Positions 1,704-56,715 of a DNA stretch of 64,000 bases are shown here, in pieces. The stretch comes from Streptomyces natalensis ATCC 27448 (GTDB lineage: Bacteria; Actinomycetota; Actinomycetes; Streptomycetales; Streptomycetaceae): NCBI RefSeq assembly GCF_000935125.1, contig NZ_JRKI01000010.1, positions 124,001 to 188,000 of the forward strand. The letters are read 5' to 3'. Each line of letters starts with the position of its first letter. Within the stretch, counting starts at the first letter, position 1. The notes below the pieces were generated by a model. That model had not been told where the DNA came from and did not search any database. It was given only the letters and a program-made list of their open reading frames with translations. The position numbers were made by a program, and so were the translations under genes.

Positions 1704-1860
1704 CAGGTCACGAGTGACAGCGATGTAGGCCCCGGCCCGCTGTCCGGCAACCCTCCGTCCGTGGCGGGGTGCCCCGGGTGATGACCAGGCCGCAGGCAGC
1801 GAGGTCTGCGGCAAGCGCGGATCCCTCGCCAGGGATCCTGGTCCTCGAGGGAGCCCTTCC
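1704..1860 (+). promoter_or_regulatory. SAM-IV riboswitch
   Basis: The 5' leader of the aminotransferase gene carries a SAM-binding core. GGTCA (1706-1710) pairs with TGACC (1782-1786) as P1, and GACAG (1716-1720) pairs with CTGTC (1740-1744) as P2. These are followed by the invariant GGCAACC (1746-1752), a P3 of CCCTCC against GGCGGGG, and then GTGCCCCGGGTGATGACC. This layout, with an extra stem-loop after P1 (GGATCCCTCGCCAGGGATCC), is that of the actinobacterial SAM-IV class, related to SAM-I. A further hairpin GGGGCC-TAC-GGCCCC (1881-1895), followed by pyrimidine-rich sequence, may be the expression platform. Family assignment comes from recognised motifs; control of the downstream gene is inferred from position. 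Confidence 0.85.
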
Positions 1861-3395: not shown

Positions 3396-3799
3396 TCTCC
3401 CCACGTTTTCGGCCATCCCGCCGCGGTTTCTTCTCGCCGTTGCGCCTGCGGCGGGCGTGGGTTGTACGGGTGCGGTGCCACGCCTCCGGACTTCGTCCTG
3501 CGGCGCGGCCCCTCCCGTGGGTGGGGGGAAGGGGCCGGTGGGGGCGTGCGTCGTCTGTCCGTTTCCGTATGACTCGACGGACATGCGGCACCCGACCGCC
3601 CACGTGTACCCCCACTGTTTTTCTCCCACCCCCAACGGGGAGGGGCCGGGCCGCAGGACGAAGTTCGGAGGCCCGGTCCCGCAGCCGAACAGCCCCGCGC
3701 AAGCGGCAACGCCCGCCGCAGGCGCAACGGCGGGAAAGCCACAACGTCGGCCCAGGCAAAGCGCAGCGGACGGGCGGGACAGCCGAAGACGTGGGGAGA
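3396..3799. repeat. Long palindromic repeat, copy A
   Basis: A roughly 400-bp inverted repeat fills the gap between two convergent genes. The ends TCTCCCCACGTTTTCGGC (3396-3413) and GCCGAAGACGTGGGGAGA (3782-3799) are near-complementary, and the arms continue inward with GCCTGCGGCGGGCG and its complement. Both arms carry a CCTCCGRACTTCGTCCTGCGG block followed by GGCCCCTCCC. The left arm has the GGTGCGGTGCCACGCC cassette and the right arm the AGCCGAACAGCCCCGCGC cassette. Copies B and C are at 12.1 and 34.7 kb. The frames across it resemble translated repeat, not genes. Confidence 0.85.
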
Positions 3800-12137: not shown

Positions 12138-12530
12138 CCCCACGTTTTCGGCTTCCCCGCCCGTCCGCTGCGCTTTGCCTTGGCCGACGGTTTGGCTTTC
12201 CCTCCGTAGCGCCTGCGGCGGGCGTTGCCGCTTGCGCGGGGCTGTTCGGCAGCGGGACCGGGCCTCCGAACTTCGTCCTGCGGCCCGGCCCCTCCCCGTT
12301 GGGGGTGGAGAAAAACCAGTGGGGGTGCACGTAGTCGATACGCGCACCCCCACCGGCCTTTTCACCCCCACTCACGGGAGGGGTCGCGCCGCAGGACGAA
12401 GTCCGGAGGCGTGGCACCGCACCCGTACAAACCCACGCCCGCCGCAGGCGCAACGGCGAGAGACTCCTACGGCGGGAAAGCCGAAAAAGTGGGGCCCAGG
12501 CAAAGCGCAGCGGACGGGTGGGGAGAAACC
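12138..12530. repeat. Long palindromic repeat, copy B
   Basis: It fills the 400-nt gap between the convergent pimB and acyl-CoA ligase genes. The ends CCCCACGTTTTCGGCTT (12138-12154) and AAGCCGAAAAAGTGGGG (12478-12494) pair, with an extra GCAAAGCGCAGCGGACGG block outside the right end. Its left half closely matches the reverse complement of the right half of copy A, and its right half matches the left half of A. The whole element is therefore in the opposite orientation. There is no credible gene inside. Confidence 0.85.
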
Positions 12531-34709: not shown

Positions 34710-36005
<1,296 letters not shown>

Positions 36006-36230
36006 TCAGCCTCCCTGGACCGCGGTGAGCACCTCGACGCGGTCGCCGTCGCCGAGCGGGGTGGCGGACCACCGGGTGCGCGGCACCACGGTCTCGTTGA
36101 CCGCGGCGGCCACGCCGGAGGGCGCCCGGGTGAGGGTGGCGACGAGACGGTCCAGGGTCAGGTCGCCGGGGATCTGCCGGGCCTCGCCGTTGACGGACAC
36201 CGAGACGGTCGGGCCACTGGGGGCGCTCAT
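36006..36230 (-). CDS. thiS: Thiamine sulfur carrier protein
   Basis: A 74-aa ubiquitin-fold sulfur carrier. It ends in the required Gly-Gly (VLTAVQGG), whose thiocarboxylate donates sulfur to ThiG. The fold is readable in SVSVNGEARQIPGDLTLDRLV and VAAAVNETVVPRTRW. The start at ATG 36230 overlaps the stop of a 23-codon micro-ORF (ATGA), and the only upstream SD-like sequence (GCGAGG) is inside that micro-ORF. A longer frame to 36275 merely reads the micro-ORF DNA in another frame. Confidence 0.93.
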   Translation of the reverse strand: MSAPSGPTVSVSVNGEARQIPGDLTLDRLVATLTRAPSGVAAAVNETVVPRTRWSATPLGDGDRVEVLTAVQGG

Positions 36231-36298
36231 GCCGAAACCTCGCTTCGCTCGGCCCCGCATTCGCGAGGCGCGCACCTCCTGATGGCTCGCTCGCTCAT
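36227..36298 (-). CDS. Translationally coupled micro-ORF between thiO and thiS
   Basis: A 23-codon ORF reads MSERAIRRCAPRECGAERSEVSA. Its ATG overlaps the thiO stop codon (ATGA) and its stop overlaps the thiS start (ATGA), so it exactly bridges the two genes. It uses codons that are rare in streptomycetes (tandem AGG AGG, repeated CGA, GTT). Related ORFs occur at 37776-37933 and 54196-54320. It may be a coupling or pausing device or an untranslated repeat; expression is untested. Confidence 0.5.
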   Translation of the reverse strand: MSERAIRRCAPRECGAERSEVSA

Positions 36299-37512
36299 AC
36301 GGGCTGCTCCTCTGGGACGCGGGCGCGCTCGGCCCGTGGGGCGGGGAAGCGCGCGGGGGAGAACGGGCGGGCCTCTTCGGGCAGGCTCCCGGTGGCCAGC
36401 AGCTCGGCCATCGCCTCGCCGGTGACCGGGGTCAGCAGGACGCCGTTGCGGAAGTGCCCGGTGGCCAGGTGGAGGCCGGGTAGCGCGGTCGGGCCGAGCA
36501 GCGGCGCATTGTCGGGCGAGGTGGGCCGCAGCCCGGCGCAGGTCTCCACGAGCGGCAGCTCGGTCAGGCCCGGGACCAGCTCGTGCGCGTCCCGCAGCAG
36601 CTCGTAGACGCCGCCCGCGGTGACGGTGGTGTCGAAGCCCAGTTCCTCGCTGGTGGCGCCCAGCACCAGCTCGCCGCTCTCGCGGGGCACCAGGTAGAGC
36701 GGATTGCCGCGGACGACGGCCCGTACGGTGCGCGAGAGGAACGGGGGGCTCCCGGCCGGCGGCACCGGCAGCCGCAGCCGCAGCACCTGGCCCTTGACGG
36801 GCCGCACCGGCGGCAGCACCTCCGGGGGGACCCCGGCCAGCCGTCCGCTCCAGCTGCCCGCGGCCAGCACGGTCTGACCGGCCGCCAGGCGGGCGCCGCC
36901 GGCGAGTTCGGCGCCGGTGGCCCGTCCGCCCTCGACCGTCAGCCGCACCGCCTGCTCCCGGTGGAAGACCACCCCGGCCCGCTCACAGGCGATCAGCAAC
37001 GCGCTCGCCAGGAGGCGCGGATCGACCTGATGGTCGCCGTCGACCCGGAGCCCGCCGCGTACCCCGGGGGCCAGCATCGGCTCCAGCCGGCGGCACTCGC
37101 GCCCCGTCAGCCACTGCGAGTCCAGCCCGGAGCGGGTCTGGAGGGCATGCAGGTCGCGCAGAAAAGCGCGGTCGTCGGCGTCCAGTGCCACGGCCAGGGT
37201 GCCGCAGGGCCGGTAGCCGATCCGCTGCCCGCTGGCCTCCTCCAGTTCGGCGGCGAACTGCGGATAGCGCCGCGCGGAGGCGAGATTGAGGCCGAGCAGG
37301 GTTTGCTCGCCGTAGTGCAGCTCGGTCACGGCGGCCAGCATTCCGGCCGCCACCCGGGCGGCCCCGCCACCGGGCGCCGGATCGGCCACCACGGTGTGCA
37401 GCCCCCGGCCGGCCGCCCGCCAGGCGGTGACCAGCCCGATGATGCCGCCTCCGATGACGAGCACATCGGGGTGCCCGGCTGCTGGTCGCGATGATGTCGC
37501 GGATGGATGCAT
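36295..37512 (-). CDS. thiO: Glycine oxidase
   Basis: A 405-aa FAD-dependent D-amino-acid-oxidase-fold enzyme that oxidises glycine to dehydroglycine for ThiG. FAD-binding N-terminus: VLVIGGGIIGLVTAWRAAGRG; then ADPAPGGGAARVAAGMLAAV, ALLIACERAGVVFHRE, GQTVLAAGSWSGRLAG and the C-terminal GLRPTSPDNAPLLGPTALPG and GHFRNGVLLTPVTGEA. It is first in the operon, directly under a TPP riboswitch. The stop codon overlaps the ATG of a micro-ORF leading to thiS. The start is ATG 37512. Confidence 0.94.
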   Translation of the reverse strand: MHPSATSSRPAAGHPDVLVIGGGIIGLVTAWRAAGRGLHTVVADPAPGGGAARVAAGMLAAVTELHYGEQTLLGLNLASARRYPQFAAELEEASGQRIGYRPCGTLAVALDADDRAFLRDLHALQTRSGLDSQWLTGRECRRLEPMLAPGVRGGLRVDGDHQVDPRLLASALLIACERAGVVFHREQAVRLTVEGGRATGAELAGGARLAAGQTVLAAGSWSGRLAGVPPEVLPPVRPVKGQVLRLRLPVPPAGSPPFLSRTVRAVVRGNPLYLVPRESGELVLGATSEELGFDTTVTAGGVYELLRDAHELVPGLTELPLVETCAGLRPTSPDNAPLLGPTALPGLHLATGHFRNGVLLTPVTGEAMAELLATGSLPEEARPFSPARFPAPRAERARVPEEQPV

Positions 37513-37524
37513 GGGCGTCCAGCC

Positions 37525-37615
37525 CCTCCCTTCGCCGGCATGACCCGGATCAGGTTCGTACGGTCGGAGGCCGGCCAGCCTCCCTCTCAGCCCGGTGCGT
37601 CCGGGCTCCCGCGAG
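37525..37615 (-). promoter_or_regulatory. TPP riboswitch (THI element)
   Basis: On the minus strand the leader of thiO contains GGGAGCCCGG, the invariant CTGAGA (complement of 37585-37590), a GGAGGCTGGCCGGCCTCC stem, then ACCTGATCCGGGTCATGCCG (complement of 37536-37555) and GCGAAGGGAGG. This is the full conserved core of thiamine-pyrophosphate riboswitches. It ends 13 nt before the thiO start, so it most likely sequesters the start region when TPP is plentiful. Confidence 0.95.
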
Positions 37616-37763
37616 TGCGTGTACCCGTCACCCTAGTACGGGCCCGCAACACGCCGTAAGGGAGCGCCCCGGGGCCGCCCGCCCGCGTCACCGTCCGTGA
37701 CGCTGTGTCAGAGATCTCGCTGCGGGCTGCTCCCGGCTGCCTTCCCGTCGTCCCCCGCCGTCC

Positions 37764-37775: not shown

Positions 37776-37856
37776 GTGAACGAGCGAAGCGAGCGAGCCA
37801 TCAGGAGGTGCGCGCCTCGCGAATGCGGGGCCGAGCGGAGCGAGGTTTCGCCATGA
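37776..37856 (+). CDS. Micro-ORF, first of a tandem pair upstream of the ferredoxin reductase
   Basis: A 26-codon ORF from GTG reads MNERSERAIRRCAPRECG, then AERSEVSP. Its stop overlaps the ATG of the second copy (ATGA). It is the first 77-bp unit of a tandem duplication and has the same rare Arg codons (AGG AGG, CGA) as the thiO/thiS copy. A -10 box six nt upstream would make it the leaderless 5' end of the transcript. Confidence 0.5.
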   Translation: MNERSERAIRRCAPRECGAERSEVSP

Positions 37857-37933
37857 ACGAGCGAAGCGAGCGAACCATCAGGAGGTGCGCGCCTCGCGAA
37901 TGCGGGGCCGAGCGGAGCGAGGTTTCGGCATGA
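37853..37933 (+). CDS. Micro-ORF, second tandem copy, overlapping the ferredoxin reductase start
   Basis: A 26-codon ORF reads MNERSERTIRRCAPRECG, then AERSEVSA. It starts within the stop of the first copy and ends with TGA overlapping the ATG of the reductase at 37930. The two 77-bp units differ at only a few bases, pointing to a recent duplication. 77 is not a multiple of three; the frame is kept only through the ATGA overlaps. Confidence 0.5.
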   Translation: MNERSERTIRRCAPRECGAERSEVSA

Positions 37934-39171
37934 GCGAGCAGCGGACGTCCTTGCAGGCCCCTGACCACACACGCCGCGTGCTGATCGCCGGCGCGGGCAT
38001 CGCCGGGGTGCAGACCGCGGTCGCCCTGCGCGAACAGGGCTGGCGCGGCGCGATCACCCTGCTCGGCGACGAGCCCCACCAGCCCTACGACCGCCCCCCG
38101 CTGTCCAAGGCCCTGCTGCTCGGCAAGGCCGACGGCGCTGCCTTCGACGTCGACTTCGCGGGCCTGGGCATCGATCTGCACCTCAGCCGCCCGGTATCCG
38201 CGCTGCGCCCCGGCGACCACGAGGCCGACACCGCAGAGGGCCCGGTCCCGTACGACTACGCGGTGATCGCCACCGGGGCCGAACCGGTGCTGCTGCCCGG
38301 CAGCGAGGGCATGCCCGGCGTCCATCTGCTGCGCACCCTGGACGACGCCGAGCGGCTGCGTCCGGTGCTCGCCGCGCAGCGCCGCATCGTGGTGGTCGGG
38401 GCGGGCTGGATCGGCGCGGAGTTCGCCACCGCGGCGCGCGAGGCGGGCTGCGCGGTCACCGTGGTCGAGGCCGCCGAGCGCCCGCTGGCCGGGGCGCTGC
38501 CCGCCGAGGTCGCCGCCCATATGACCTCCTGGTACGCGGATGCCGGCGCCGAACTGCGCACCGGCACCGGCGTCGCCGCCGTGGAACCGGGCGCGGTCGT
38601 CCTCGCCGACGGCACCGTCCTGCCCGCCGACGCCGTGGTCGTCGGCATCGGCGCCCGCCCCGCGACCGGCTGGCTGGCCGGCTCCGGCGTCGCCCTCTCG
38701 CATGAGAACGGCTCCGTACTGGCCGACGAGCAGCTGCGCGCCTCCGTCCCCGACGTCTACGCGGTCGGCGACTGCGCCTCCTTCCCCTCCGCCCGTTACG
38801 GCCGCCGGCTGCTGATCCACCACTGGGACAACGCCCTCCAGGGGCCCCGTACGGTCGGTGAGAACATCGCCCGTGGGGCGGCGGAGGGCGTGGTCTACGA
38901 CCCGGTCCCGTATTTCTGGTCCGAGCAGTTCGGGCGGTTCGTCCAGTACGCGGGCCATCACCAGGCCGCCGACGAGATGATCTGGCGCGGCGACCCGGCG
39001 GGCGCCTCCTGGTCGGTGCTGTGGCTGCACGAGGGACGGATGGTCGCGCTGCTGGCCGTCGGCCGGCCCAGGGATCTGGCCCAGGGCCGCAAGCTCATCG
39101 AGAAGGGCGCCGCCCTCGACCGCGACCGGGCCGCGGACGCCGCGCTGCCCCTGAAGTCCGCGGTCCTCTAG
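37930..39171 (+). CDS. FAD/NAD(P)-dependent ferredoxin (rubredoxin/rhodocoxin-type) reductase
   Basis: A 413-aa two-dinucleotide-fold flavoenzyme. FAD loop: VLIAGAGIAGVQTAVALREQG. Active region: DEPHQPYDRPPLSKALLLGK. NAD(P)H loop: RIVVVGAGWIGAEFATAAREAG. The second FAD motif is DVYAVGDCASF, and the C-terminal reductase domain begins at YFWSEQFGRFVQYAG. It belongs to the group that reduces ferredoxins feeding oxygenases. No ferredoxin or P450 gene is adjacent, so the partner is unknown. ATG 37930 overlaps a micro-ORF stop; an in-frame start at 37885 would simply translate the repeat. Confidence 0.88.
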   Translation: MSEQRTSLQAPDHTRRVLIAGAGIAGVQTAVALREQGWRGAITLLGDEPHQPYDRPPLSKALLLGKADGAAFDVDFAGLGIDLHLSRPVSALRPGDHEADTAEGPVPYDYAVIATGAEPVLLPGSEGMPGVHLLRTLDDAERLRPVLAAQRRIVVVGAGWIGAEFATAAREAGCAVTVVEAAERPLAGALPAEVAAHMTSWYADAGAELRTGTGVAAVEPGAVVLADGTVLPADAVVVGIGARPATGWLAGSGVALSHENGSVLADEQLRASVPDVYAVGDCASFPSARYGRRLLIHHWDNALQGPRTVGENIARGAAEGVVYDPVPYFWSEQFGRFVQYAGHHQAADEMIWRGDPAGASWSVLWLHEGRMVALLAVGRPRDLAQGRKLIEKGAALDRDRAADAALPLKSAVL

Positions 39172-51787: not shown

Positions 51788-54199
51788 CTACGCGCGCTGC
51801 CGTCCCGGCCGCAGGGCCGATGCCGCGCGGCGGGCCGCGGTGACCGGGGCGCTGGTGCGGCAGCGGGTGGCGAAGGCCGTCCAGCGGGCCGAGCAGGCCT
51901 GGACGAGACGGGCCGCGGAGCGCGGCGCGAGCCGGGCGCGCAGCCGCAGGGCGCGGGTGGCCGCCGTGTGCAGTCCGGCGTGGACCCGCTGGACGTCGGT
52001 GGTGAGACCGGACACCGGGTGCGGCTGCGGGGCGTACAGCGTCTGCTCGACCGCCGCGGCCATGCGGCGGGCGGCCTCGGCGGCTTCCCCTTGCAGTTCC
52101 CCGATGCGAATGATCCGGGCGGCCGCCCTGCGCGGCGTCAGCGATTCGTCCGGCAGGATCCCGAAGTCCCAGGCCGTGTCCAGCAGCTCCTGCCAGGCGG
52201 GCAGGGGGTCCGTTGCCGCGTCACCGCCCGCCAGCCATCGGGAGCGTATCCGCAGCCGCCACAGCAGGGGCACGCAGAGCAACAACGCGACGAGCAGCGC
52301 GGCCAGGCCGATGGCCAGGACCGGCCAGAGGGCGGGGCCACCGGCCGTGGGTCCGGCGCCGGGTCGGGCGGGAGCCGCCGCACAGGACGTCCCTGAGCCC
52401 TGCCGCCCCTCACCGGGGGCGCAGCTCGGGGCCGTGGACGGGGCGTGCGGCGCTTCGGCGGACGGTGCGGGCCGGGGAGCGGGGTCAGTGGGATCGGCTC
52501 CGGCCGATCCGTGGTCGCGGTAGGTGTAGTCGGGGACGCTGCCGCGGCTCGGGGTCGGTTCGAAGCGGGTCCAGCCGATGCCCTGGAAGTACAGCTCGGG
52601 CCAGGCGTGCGCGTCCTTGAGGCTGACGGAGGTGGTGCCGTCGGACTGCGGGGTGCCCGGCGTGAAGCCGACCGCTACCCGGGCGGGGATCCCCAGCGTC
52701 CGCGCCATCGCCGCCATCGAGAAGGAGAAGTGGACGCAGAAGCCCTCCCGGTCCTTCAGGAAGCGGGCGATGGCCTCGCTGCCGCTGCCCGCGTTGACCT
52801 GAGTGTTGTAGGTGAAACCACCGTTGAGCGAGAACCAGTCCTGGAGGTCGACCGCCTTGTCGTACGCGGTGTGCGCGCCGCGGGTGACCGCGAGCGCGGT
52901 CCGGTGCACCACCGAGGGCAGCGAGGCGGGGACCTTGGTGTACTCGCGGACCAGCCGGGCGGGCGGCCGCGGGGCCGCGGCCAGCTGTTTCGCGGTCGGC
53001 CGCACCTGAAGGCTCTCGACCTGGTACTGCACCCCGCGGGTGGTCTGCCCCCGGTCGCCGACCAGGGTGCGTCCGGCGGGCTCGAAGCGCCAGCGCCCGG
53101 CGATGTCCACCCGGGAGGCGGGGTAGGGGAGCGGCAGCCAGTTCTGGGCGTACCAGTCGGCGGTCGAGACGGAGGTGTTGACCGTGGTGGTGGGCACCTC
53201 GGCGGACAGGCCGGGCGGTCCCGGCAGCCGGTCGGGGACATCGGTGACGGTGCGTTCGGACGGCCTCCAGGCCGCGCCGTCGAACCGGTCCAGGGCCACT
53301 ATCCGAAGATACAGATCGCTGGTGTCCCCGGTGGTCGTGCGGTAGTTGAGGACTTCCTTGTCCTCCGGCTGGTTGAGGCTGTTCTGCAACGAGACCAGCG
53401 GATTGACCGCGGAGATCGTGCCGCCCCCGCCGCCGGGGCCTCTGCCGTCGCCGGGCGGGCCGATCAGCCCGCCGCCCAGCGAGGGCAGCGCGGCGGGCAC
53501 CACCAGCGCGATCCCCAGGGCCAGCGCGCCGATCCGGCGGCCGGTACGCACCGGGGGCGGGGCGCCGCCCGCGGAGCCGAAGCCGCCCGGCCGGGCCGGG
53601 CCCGTCCCGCCGAAGACCCGGCCCCACTGGGAGAGCCGGTCGCGGCCCTCGGCGAGCAGCAGCATCAGATAGCCGGCCGCCGCCACCAGGAACCACAGCC
53701 AGCCCGCGCCGCCCTGGGACAGCCCGGCCGCCACCGAGTACAGCGCGAGCAGCGGCAGCCCGGCGGGGGCAGCGCTGCGGTAGGTGGCCGCCAGCGCGTC
53801 CACCACCAGGCCGATCAGCAGCACCCCGGCCACCAGCAGCAGCCGGATGCCGGGGGTGGCCGGCGCCGGGGTGGCGTAGCGGCCGGCGTCCCGTACGCCC
53901 TCGTGGACCAGCCGGGCGAACTCGGTAACGGCGTCCGGTCCGGGCAACAGCCCGAGGACCGCCCGGTCGTGGACGAAGCACACGGTCAGCAGCAGGACGG
54001 CGAGCAGCGCCTGCGCCGCGATGGTCAGCGGTCTGGCCAGCGGCACCCGCCGCATCAGCGCGCCCGCACCGCTGACGACTGCCAGCAGGATCGCGGCCGG
54101 CACCAGCCAGTCGAAGGGCTGCACCAGCGGCAGCAGTGCGCAGGCCGCGCACAGCGTCGCCATCGCCGCGCACAGCGCCAGTCGACCCCGACCGCTCAT
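51788..54199 (-). CDS. TgpA-type transglutaminase-domain membrane protein
   Basis: An 803-aa protein with six to seven N-terminal transmembrane helices (residues 5-235). A large extracytoplasmic domain contains a transglutaminase-like fold, with the catalytic Cys in LKDREGFCVHFSFSMAAMAR, His in SLKDAHAWPELYFQG and the acidic residue in GWTRFEPTPSRG. One more transmembrane helix (VLAIGLAALLVALLLCVPLL) and a cytoplasmic DUF4129 tail (PLPAWQELLDTAWDFG) follow. It is the third gene of the MoxR-DUF58-TgpA set found in many bacteria, thought to remodel surface proteins or wall. ATG 54199 overlaps a micro-ORF stop (ATGA). Confidence 0.92.
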   Translation of the reverse strand: MSGRGRLALCAAMATLCAACALLPLVQPFDWLVPAAILLAVVSGAGALMRRVPLARPLTIAAQALLAVLLLTVCFVHDRAVLGLLPGPDAVTEFARLVHEGVRDAGRYATPAPATPGIRLLLVAGVLLIGLVVDALAATYRSAAPAGLPLLALYSVAAGLSQGGAGWLWFLVAAAGYLMLLLAEGRDRLSQWGRVFGGTGPARPGGFGSAGGAPPPVRTGRRIGALALGIALVVPAALPSLGGGLIGPPGDGRGPGGGGGTISAVNPLVSLQNSLNQPEDKEVLNYRTTTGDTSDLYLRIVALDRFDGAAWRPSERTVTDVPDRLPGPPGLSAEVPTTTVNTSVSTADWYAQNWLPLPYPASRVDIAGRWRFEPAGRTLVGDRGQTTRGVQYQVESLQVRPTAKQLAAAPRPPARLVREYTKVPASLPSVVHRTALAVTRGAHTAYDKAVDLQDWFSLNGGFTYNTQVNAGSGSEAIARFLKDREGFCVHFSFSMAAMARTLGIPARVAVGFTPGTPQSDGTTSVSLKDAHAWPELYFQGIGWTRFEPTPSRGSVPDYTYRDHGSAGADPTDPAPRPAPSAEAPHAPSTAPSCAPGEGRQGSGTSCAAAPARPGAGPTAGGPALWPVLAIGLAALLVALLLCVPLLWRLRIRSRWLAGGDAATDPLPAWQELLDTAWDFGILPDESLTPRRAAARIIRIGELQGEAAEAARRMAAAVEQTLYAPQPHPVSGLTTDVQRVHAGLHTAATRALRLRARLAPRSAARLVQACSARWTAFATRCRTSAPVTAARRAASALRPGRQRA

Positions 54200-54276
54200 G
54201 CCGACACCTCGCTTCGCTCGGCTCCGCATTCGCGGAGCGCGCACCCCCTTCTGATGAGCTCCCTGTGCTCGCTCAT
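54196..54276 (-). CDS. Micro-ORF overlapping the transglutaminase start
   Basis: A 26-codon ORF reads MSEHRELIRRGCALRECG, then AERSEVSA. Its stop overlaps the transglutaminase ATG and its ATG overlaps the stop of the shorter micro-ORF before it. It is a diverged member of the family at 36.2 and 37.8 kb: the C-terminal AERSEVSA and the RRxCAxRECG core are kept, with AGA AGG in place of AGG AGG. Confidence 0.5.
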   Translation of the reverse strand: MSEHRELIRRGCALRECGAERSEVSA

Positions 54277-54320
54277 GCCGACACCTCGCTTCGCTCGGCT
54301 CCGCCCGTCCGTGCCCTCAT
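54273..54320 (-). CDS. Short micro-ORF overlapping the DUF58 stop
   Basis: A 15-codon ORF reads MRARTGGAERSEVSA. Its ATG overlaps the DUF58 stop (ATGA) and its TGA overlaps the next micro-ORF's ATG. Only the 3' half of the repeat (GAGCCGAGCGAAGCGAGGTG) is present, so it looks like a partial copy that still preserves coupling. Confidence 0.45.
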   Translation of the reverse strand: MRARTGGAERSEVSA

Positions 54321-55692
54321 GCCCCGCCTCCCGCCGTGGCGCCGTCCGGTGCGGGCCGCTCCGGGCCCGCCCCGGCGTGGTCGGCGGCGCACCGCCACAG
54401 ATCGGCGAGTGAGCTGTCGGCGGTCACCGGCAGCGCCGTCCAGCCCGCCTTGCGCAGCATCAGCACCCGCTCCGCCACCGGCAGCTGGTCCGACGCGAAC
54501 CGGATCCCGCCGGGGCCGGTCAGCCACGCATCCCCGTCCAGGACGAACGCCACCGCCGCGCCGCAGCGCTGCCGTATCCGCCCCGCGACCGCCGCCTGCT
54601 CCTCGTCCAGATCGCCGAAGAAGCCGACCAGCAGGCCCTCCTTGCCGCCGCGCAGGGCGTCGTATGCGGCCGAGAGCCCGCTCTCCTCGGAGGGCTCCAG
54701 CACCGCGAGGGTGTCCAGCAGCAGGCCCGCCGTGTCAGCGGACGCGGCGGCGCCGGTGCCGTCCAGGCCGGGCACCGGGCTGCCGGTGTCGGTCAGCAGC
54801 CGCACCGAGAAGCCCCGCTCCAGCAGATGGACGCCCACCGATGCGGCGGCGGTGACGGCCCATTCGAAGGCCGCTTCGGGACCGGCTCCCTCGTGCGCCT
54901 GTACCCGGGTGTCCAAAAGGACCGTGCAGCGCGCCTTTTGGGGCTGTTCCTCCCGGCGCACCATCAGCTCGCCGTGGCGTGCGGTCGACCGCCAGTGGAC
55001 CCGGCGCAGATCGTCGCCGTGGCGGTAGCCGCGGGGGATGATGTCGTCCTCACCGGCCAGCGCCAGGGAGCGCTGCCGACCGTCGCCGTAGCCGGGGGTC
55101 TCGCCCGGTGGGCGGACGGGCGGCAGCGGCTCGGTGCGCGGCACCACCATCAGGGTGTCGGCGGTGCTGAAGGAACGGGCCAGCTCGCACATGCCGAACG
55201 GATCGGACAGCCGCAGCTGGAGCGGCCCCAGCGGATAGCGGCCGCGCAGATCGGACCGGACGCGGTAGGACACCTCCCGCCGGCCGCCGGCCTCCACCCG
55301 GTCCAGCACGAAACGCGGCCGCGGCCCCAGGACGTAGGGCACCCGGTCCTGGAGCATCAGCACCCCGGTGGGCAGCCGGGAGACGTTCTCGATCCGCAGC
55401 CGGACCCGGGACTCGCCGCCCGCCGGCACCCGGCCGGGCGTCAGCGTACGGCTGCCCGTGACGCGGTGCCGGGTGCGGTGCAGTACCAGGACGCACACCA
55501 GCGGCAGCGCCGCCAGCAGCAGCCCGACCCGCAGCAGATCCGCCTGCCCGAGCAGGAACGAACACACCGCCGCGGCCACCCCGGCCGCCAGGAACGATCT
55601 GCCGCGCGTGGTCAGCCCCCCGAGCGCCGCCCGCAGCCCCGCCCGCTGCGGCGTCCCCTCGTGCCCCGCCCCGAAGCTCCCCCCGTCGGACA

Positions 55693-55693
<1 letters not shown>
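54317..55693 (-). CDS. DUF58 protein
   Basis: A 458-aa protein with two N-terminal hydrophobic helices (SFLAAGVAAAVCSFLLG, RVGLLLAALPLVCVLVL), a beta-rich middle, and the DUF58 core: GDDLRRVHWRSTARHGELMVRREEQ and VLLDTRVQ, the start of a von Willebrand A-like fold with an altered MIDAS (DTR instead of DxSxS). DUF58 proteins work with MoxR ATPases in assembling or activating surface complexes. ATG 55693 overlaps the MoxR stop by one base (TGATG). The stop overlaps a micro-ORF leading to the transglutaminase gene. Confidence 0.9.

Positions 55694-56715
<1,022 letters not shown>

Follow-up and report, generated by a model that had tools for sequence, protein, structure and literature searches.

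Within the window analyzed here, a stretch of 64,000 nucleotides from Streptomyces natalensis ATCC 27448, a gene for a thiO-type FAD-dependent oxidoreductase is followed by thiS, and the two are joined by a micro-ORF that overlaps each neighbor by four bases (Table 1). Its predicted product is MSERAIRRCAPRECGAERSEVSA*. The thiO-thiS element probably sits within a riboswitch-controlled operon, since a TPP riboswitch lies directly upstream of thiO.

Micro-ORFs of the same type precede a flavoreductase gene, as a tandem pair, and lie between a DUF58 gene and a transglutaminase gene. The initial annotation had placed five such copies in the window, and all five are confirmed from the sequence. The double overlap that it attributed to every copy fails for flavoreductase copy 1: no upstream coding ORF overlaps its left GTGA, and its right ATGA opens copy 2. 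The lengths of all five are 2 mod 3. At the flavoreductase site, three relatives (G137, G064, and G090) carry an empty GTGA start, with only the gene's own GTG start present. A TAGAGT box stands six nt ahead of the GTGA at 37776 (+), and some starts, of which this is one, look leaderless from the sequence.

Table 1. Features of the window referred to in the text (positions are those of the window).
Feature	Position	Strand	Remarks
thiS, downstream neighbor	36006..36230	-	Pfam ThiS, E 3e-16
thiO-thiS micro-ORF element	36227..36298	-	23 codons, 68 nt from ATGA to ATGA
Right ATGA of thiO-thiS element	36227-36230	-	holds micro-ORF stop and thiS start
GAGG, Shine-Dalgarno-like, element-borne	36238..36241	-	seven nt before thiS start
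Hairpin GCCTCGC-GAAT-GCGGGGC within thiO-thiS copy	36252..36269	-	A1 columns 39-45 with 50-56
Left ATGA of thiO-thiS element	36295-36298	-	holds thiO stop and micro-ORF start
thiO-type FAD-dependent oxidoreductase gene, upstream neighbor	36295..37512	-	Pfam DAO, E 8e-72
TPP riboswitch	37510-37622	-	
Flavoreductase element copy 1	37776..37856	+	77 nt; the gene formerly started at the left GTGA
Flavoreductase element copy 2, tandem	37853..37933	+	77 nt; right ATGA is the flavoreductase start
NAD(P)/FAD reductase gene (flavoreductase)	37930..39171	+	Pfam Pyr_redox_2, Reductase_C
TgpA_N/transglutaminase gene	51788..54199	-	Pfam
77-nt element copy	54196..54276	-	right ATGA is the transglutaminase gene start; empty site in G018
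Shortened element copy	54273..54320	-	44 nt, 15 codons; left ATGA holds the DUF58 gene stop; by eye
DUF58 gene	54317..55741	-	Pfam
SAM-IV riboswitch	1706-1823	+	

The window also holds a second family of dispersed repeats, some of whose copies are long and inverted (3445-3796, 12138-12446, and 34793-35133); among these, 3597-3796 and 12138-12337 are 92% complementary over 200 nt, and 34793-34940 and 34986-35133 are 88% complementary.

Copies, lengths, and reading frame

A BLAST search of the S. natalensis genome with the element gave 41 matches at E ≤ 1, and 30 of these reached E ≤ 5e-9, a recurrence far beyond chance. An alignment (A1) was assembled from 29 unique copies of the 68- and 77-nt types that align without gaps, within which openness of the frame is biased by length, and a covariance model (R1) was built from it. 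At a threshold of E ≤ 0.01, R1 matched 36 places in the S. natalensis genome (G000), 22 in G064, 42 in G090, 14 in G137, and one in G035, and the description of a dispersed element is thus borne out by 115 matches across five genomes. The shortened 44-nt copy of the window lies outside these 115. All 115 were read in their loci, and both ends are defined for 110 matches, the remaining five having been dropped for an undefined end; the left end was placed manually for G137:2576845, where it reads GTGC, and for G000:C10:90023. These 110 copies, which include all lengths, group into 97 arrays, of which 86 are single, nine double, and two triple, such that 11 of the 97 contain two or three model matches. 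Copy number varies even at a single site: ahead of an M20-peptidase gene there is one copy in G064, one in G137, two in G090, and three in S. natalensis.

Measured from RTGA to RTGA (R = A or G), the 110 copies span 56-143 nt, or 44-143 nt if the short copy of the window is included, and 50 of them are exactly 77 nt long. Ninety-five lengths are 2 mod 3, ten are 0 mod 3, and five are 1 mod 3, counts that overstate the number of independent events because the copies share ancestry; by the safer measure of distinct lengths, 16 of 22 are 2 mod 3 (binomial 2e-4). The claim that the frame is kept was checked against the frequency of frame-breaking lengths, and these proved rare (5/110). In the 95 copies of the main class, the frame stays open as far as the TGA within the right RTGA, which overlaps the next start at -4 spacing, the geometry of translational coupling. 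The ten copies of 0 mod 3 are instead fused in frame to the next ORF, which is sometimes the next tandem copy, and the five of 1 mod 3 are broken, two by premature stops and three by running on in another frame; four of these broken copies measure 103 nt, one base below a common 104-nt form. Since these five copies have lost coupling, coupling is not absolutely required.

Part of the length variation is due to a stretch around GGGGGTCCCCCCGGCCGGAGGCTGGGGGAG, which lengthens the 77-nt form by 27 nt without a change of frame and is found at two places within the element. A pattern related to it occurs 14 times in the S. natalensis genome and five times in G004; four of the former places and the five in G004 show no element when read by eye, and an R1 search of G004 returned no match. 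The stretch is probably a separate repeat that has nested in the element without breaking its frame. The hairpin repeat of the genus, GGGGGTCCCCC...GGGGGAG, which lies at G000:C5:34395, at G000:C61:293876, and in G004 (loci L310, L322, L311, L313, L315, L317, and L319), also occurs nested in frame in the element.

Three micro-ORF peptides compared with Pfam and NCBIfam matched no family, and an Rfam search of the five window copies found no family above the gathering score. Carriage by a plasmid or phage was considered and rejected, as one 81-nt copy queried against plasmid and phage collections had no match at E ≤ 1e-3 in either.

Placement at start codons and empty alleles

The arrays are concentrated at the starts of coding ORFs. 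When a start-like site is defined as an RTGA with coding sequence downstream and non-coding sequence in the same frame upstream, 92 of the 97 arrays lie over one; among the 1863 RTGA sites that served as controls in these loci, 238 qualify. Under a looser test, requiring an in-frame coding ORF on the same strand, the figures are 95 of 100 terminal copies and 861 of 2799 control sites; in both tests, start calls are based on codon-position GC content save where relatives or Pfam support them. Most copies therefore overlap a flanking start codon, as had been proposed. The further proposal that the element bridges consecutive genes holds for 48 of the 97 arrays, in which an upstream coding ORF ends at the left TGA, and does not hold for the rest, which occupy starts that no upstream coding ORF overlaps. 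The element is better described as inserting at start codons than as bridging junctions.

Five arrays failed the start-like test. One (G090:7233040) is borderline by base composition, and two (G090:3493206 and G090:5977222) are away from any coding start. At the other two (G137:6660435 and G090:6439652), the right ATGA opens a further short ORF, of 16 or 30 codons (loci L034 and L259, respectively), that ends in an RTGA overlap with the start of a coding ORF and is perhaps a worn older copy; despite this chaining, the count was kept at 92/97. The right end reads ATGA in 96 of the 97 arrays and the left end GTGA in 32. Because the right end is ATGA even where the left end or the relatives have GTGA, its A is evidently supplied by the element. 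To judge from these ends, the bases duplicated at insertion would be TGA, or there would be no duplication if the element enters 3' of the RTGA.

Comparison with related genomes agrees with insertion at these positions. For thiO-thiS, 24 relatives of the same genus were searched and 21 loci obtained, with L069, L072, and L081 giving no call; a single RTGA, read by eye, joins both genes in 18 of the 21. The junction appears to be occupied in G064 and G090 also, judging from flanking letters and ORF lengths. For 14 further sites, the joined flanks were searched in 12 relatives, and 51 regions were hand-picked from nine of these genomes. When the alignments were read by eye, 35 regions were empty, 14 were occupied or had an insertion or remnant, and two were unusable (L170 and L171). 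A clean empty allele was found at 13 of the 14 sites, the exception being that of L028. Empty alleles in relatives thus bear out the suggestion that the element was inserted. The site ahead of a dehydroquinase gene (L126, G090:C1:7844552) holds a long composite insertion, with several hairpin repeats inside the element.

Constraint on the frame, the hairpin, and the Shine-Dalgarno-like stretch

Among the 50 distinct copies of 77 nt, there is no premature stop, compared with a mean of 12.6 when substitutions were relocated at random (p 0.001), and 192 of 567 changes are synonymous versus 153.7 expected (p 0.08). Since premature stops are lacking while the synonymous excess is weak, it is the openness of the frame that is kept rather than the peptide; peptide function as the main constraint was rejected, the synonymous excess having reached p 0.08 in two tests. 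Together with the 95/110 overlaps and the 92/97 arrays at start-like sites, the absence of premature stops upholds the view that frame and start overlap are retained beyond neutral expectation.

A hairpin formed by columns 39-45 and 50-56 of A1, picked after viewing the alignment and then tested, shows 14 both-side changes compared with 3.9 in shuffled alignments (none of 500 as high), and versions slid along the alignment score worse than the actual columns. Further pair types show no excess over shuffles (172/500), and the automatic RNAalifold consensus of A1 is a weak structure without this hairpin, containing one pair with a both-side change.

The four bases GAGG are invariant across the 29 copies of A1, and GAGG, GGAG, or AGGA is present 5-16 nt before the right start in 94 of the 97 arrays. 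Predicted pairing with the 16S anti-Shine-Dalgarno sequence reaches -4 kcal/mol or lower ahead of the right start in 97/97 arrays (median -10.1), versus a median of -3.4 for random stretches, 44% of which reach the same limit. Ahead of the left start, the inherited site reaches -4 kcal/mol in 89/97 arrays (median -9.3). Tandem rare Arg codons, initially put forward as a feature of the family and as an AGGAGG-like stretch that could pause ribosomes, did not stand up on either count; tandem AGG/AGA codons are present in 13 of 110 copies, the stretch is variable, and the conserved Shine-Dalgarno-like stretch is the GAGG located elsewhere in the element. Terminal inverted repeats, a feature of MITEs, are absent from A1 when read by eye, and its ends share GAGCGNAGCGAG in direct orientation.

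Likeness to known repeats, mode of spread, and distribution

The elements that the Streptomyces family most resembles are the MIRUs of mycobacteria, which insert at DTGA sites and point the same way as the gene behind them. The family is likened to them by architecture. MIRUs were reportedly described by Supply et al. in 1997. In PMC12548453, the MIRU is a short interspersed unit that inserts at start codons and whose small ORF is coupled to the following gene at -4 spacing; PMC2453075 gives MIRU04 as a 77-bp unit with a 53-bp form, and units of 77 and 53 bp make up variable-number arrays at senX3-regX3 (PMC2453075; PMC4213456). The Streptomyces element also has a 77-bp unit with shortened forms at tens of loci, a small ORF whose end overlaps the following start at -4 spacing (95/110 copies), insertion at start codons (92/97 arrays, with empty RTGA alleles), the direction of the downstream gene (95/100 terminal copies), and tandem arrays of varying number (1, 1, 2, and 3 copies at one site); the 77- and 53-bp MIRU lengths are both 2 mod 3, as are most lengths here. 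It differs in being found in Streptomyces and other actinobacterial families. On the range of MIRUs the sources contradict each other, one giving "many mycobacteria" (PMC12548453) and the other confining them to M. leprae and the M. tuberculosis complex (PMC4213456), and both speak of mycobacteria only. A scan of genome contigs with the MIRU04 primers found 12 stretches, none titled mycobacterium, and matched 0/396 in genus g8. A literature search, to which most subscription papers were outside scope, found no report of the element family or its peptide in Streptomyces.

We consider it probable, at roughly 0.8, that the element is a mobile repeat of the MIRU type, non-autonomous and about 77 bp long, that survives through translational coupling. 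It would enter at an RTGA start codon, so that the old gene start now opens a micro-ORF of 15-48 codons, and its right end would bring a new ATGA in which the micro-ORF stop overlaps the host-gene start by four bases. Ribosomes bound for the gene would first translate the micro-ORF, terminate at the TGA, and restart on the overlapping ATG, aided by the element-borne GAGG just ahead of it. Movement would depend on an enzyme supplied in trans. Insertion into a start codon is most likely made harmless by rebuilding a coupled start, and the preservation of expression after insertion is a simpler reading than the setting of a downstream expression ratio.

The principal alternative is a passive repeat that enters any RTGA, the other copies being lost by selection or decay, such that coupling is a survival filter only. 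This would fit the RTGA being the sole shared target feature seen, a frame that is kept while the peptide is not, and the toleration of in-frame fusions (10/110). The examined loci hold 323 RTGA sites in noncoding stretches (on a rough gene map), compared with 238 start-like controls, yet only two of the 97 arrays are off coding starts; because so many noncoding sites are available, a "harmless site" alone fails to explain the preference for starts. Moreover, 18 arrays have a terminal copy among the top 20 by score and are probably recent, and none of these failed the start-like test, leaving the passive repeat a possible but somewhat unlikely explanation. At the opposite extreme, the machinery itself may recognize translated starts, for example via initiating ribosomes, nascent transcripts, or R-loops, so that the pattern would not be a product of later selection, in which case there could be a wide actinobacterial superfamily of "start-codon seekers" with MIRUs as one branch; we regard this as rather doubtful.

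A regulatory cassette of the kind initially suggested, in which the micro-ORF, its codons, or the hairpin set the downstream ratio and copies are kept because they are useful, seems unlikely. It would be in keeping with the covariation of the hairpin and with shared sites such as thiO-thiS (in S. natalensis and, by inference, G064 and G090) and the M20-peptidase gene (four genomes), and it is opposed by the unrelated families of the host genes (ten proteins were examined out of 31 S. natalensis arrays, and all match Pfam families), the lack of the element from 35/51 orthologous regions and 18/21 thiO-thiS loci, the rare-Arg pair being limited to 13/110 copies, and the weak constraint on the peptide. 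Rickettsia palindromic elements are short repeats inside host ORFs that tolerate translation and keep frame, as the Streptomyces element does; the latter differs in that it makes a separate ORF upstream of the host start and is fused in just 10/110 copies. To our knowledge, neither location at start codons nor frame retention is a feature of REP elements, and it is highly improbable that the element is a palindromic repeat of REP/REPIN type mobilized by a Y1 (RAYT) transposase. Such repeats are GTAG/CGTC-tagged palindromes (PMC3733652; PMC3116915), and the likeness is confined to short, dispersed repeats with a conserved hairpin; Y1_Tnp (PF01797) was found in one of ten carrier genomes searched and was absent from nine including S. 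natalensis, where this origin is largely excluded unless the enzyme has been lost. Bicistronic leader designs, mentioned in PMC12548453, similarly use a short ORF to deliver ribosomes to the following gene, and are engineered and non-mobile, unlike the putatively mobile Streptomyces element.

If the element is a MIRU-type repeat surviving through coupling, pairs of presence and absence at one start codon in related species would serve as natural experiments on termination-reinitiation coupling, and the mobilizing enzyme becomes a searchable question. Such elements can also mislead the annotation of gene starts, and in-frame fusion can add N-terminal extensions, as in the 10/110 copies that run into the next ORF.

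Within the genus Streptomyces, at least 28 of 392 genomes, S. natalensis included, match R1 at E ≤ 1e-6, a lower bound given that 11 candidates were scored per genome under strict filters. An earlier BLAST of 150 genomes of the genus, with six candidates scored in each, gave five with a match, and the R1 census is the better measure. In a sample of 396 genomes from the phylum, two matched besides S. natalensis (G604 and G635). Six copies from G635 were aligned (A2) and used to build a second model, R2, which matched 20 of 251 genomes in the family of G635, that genome included (18 of genus g9, one of g251, and one of g254), and gave weak matches in 3 of 248 genomes of genus g8. As read from sequence, related elements occur in other actinobacterial families, and the range of MIRU-like elements is probably wider than mycobacteria; the presence of such translationally insulated elements in Streptomyces-type genomes and several actinobacterial genera suggests that they are not confined to mycobacteria and could be studied in harmless laboratory hosts. 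In 21 of the 22 loci read from other genera, a coding ORF starts in overlap with the stop of a micro-ORF, the exception being L285, and the micro-ORFs of most begin MSERSER.... The host genes at these loci include some that, from the letters of their proteins, we take to be metG, sepF, ilvN, and pstA. In genus g9, elements are found at one start, that of the gene read as sepF, in several species (L287, L288, L290, L291, L293, and L296), and in two of these loci (L288 and L290) neighboring copies share a single continuous frame and lack the four-base overlap.
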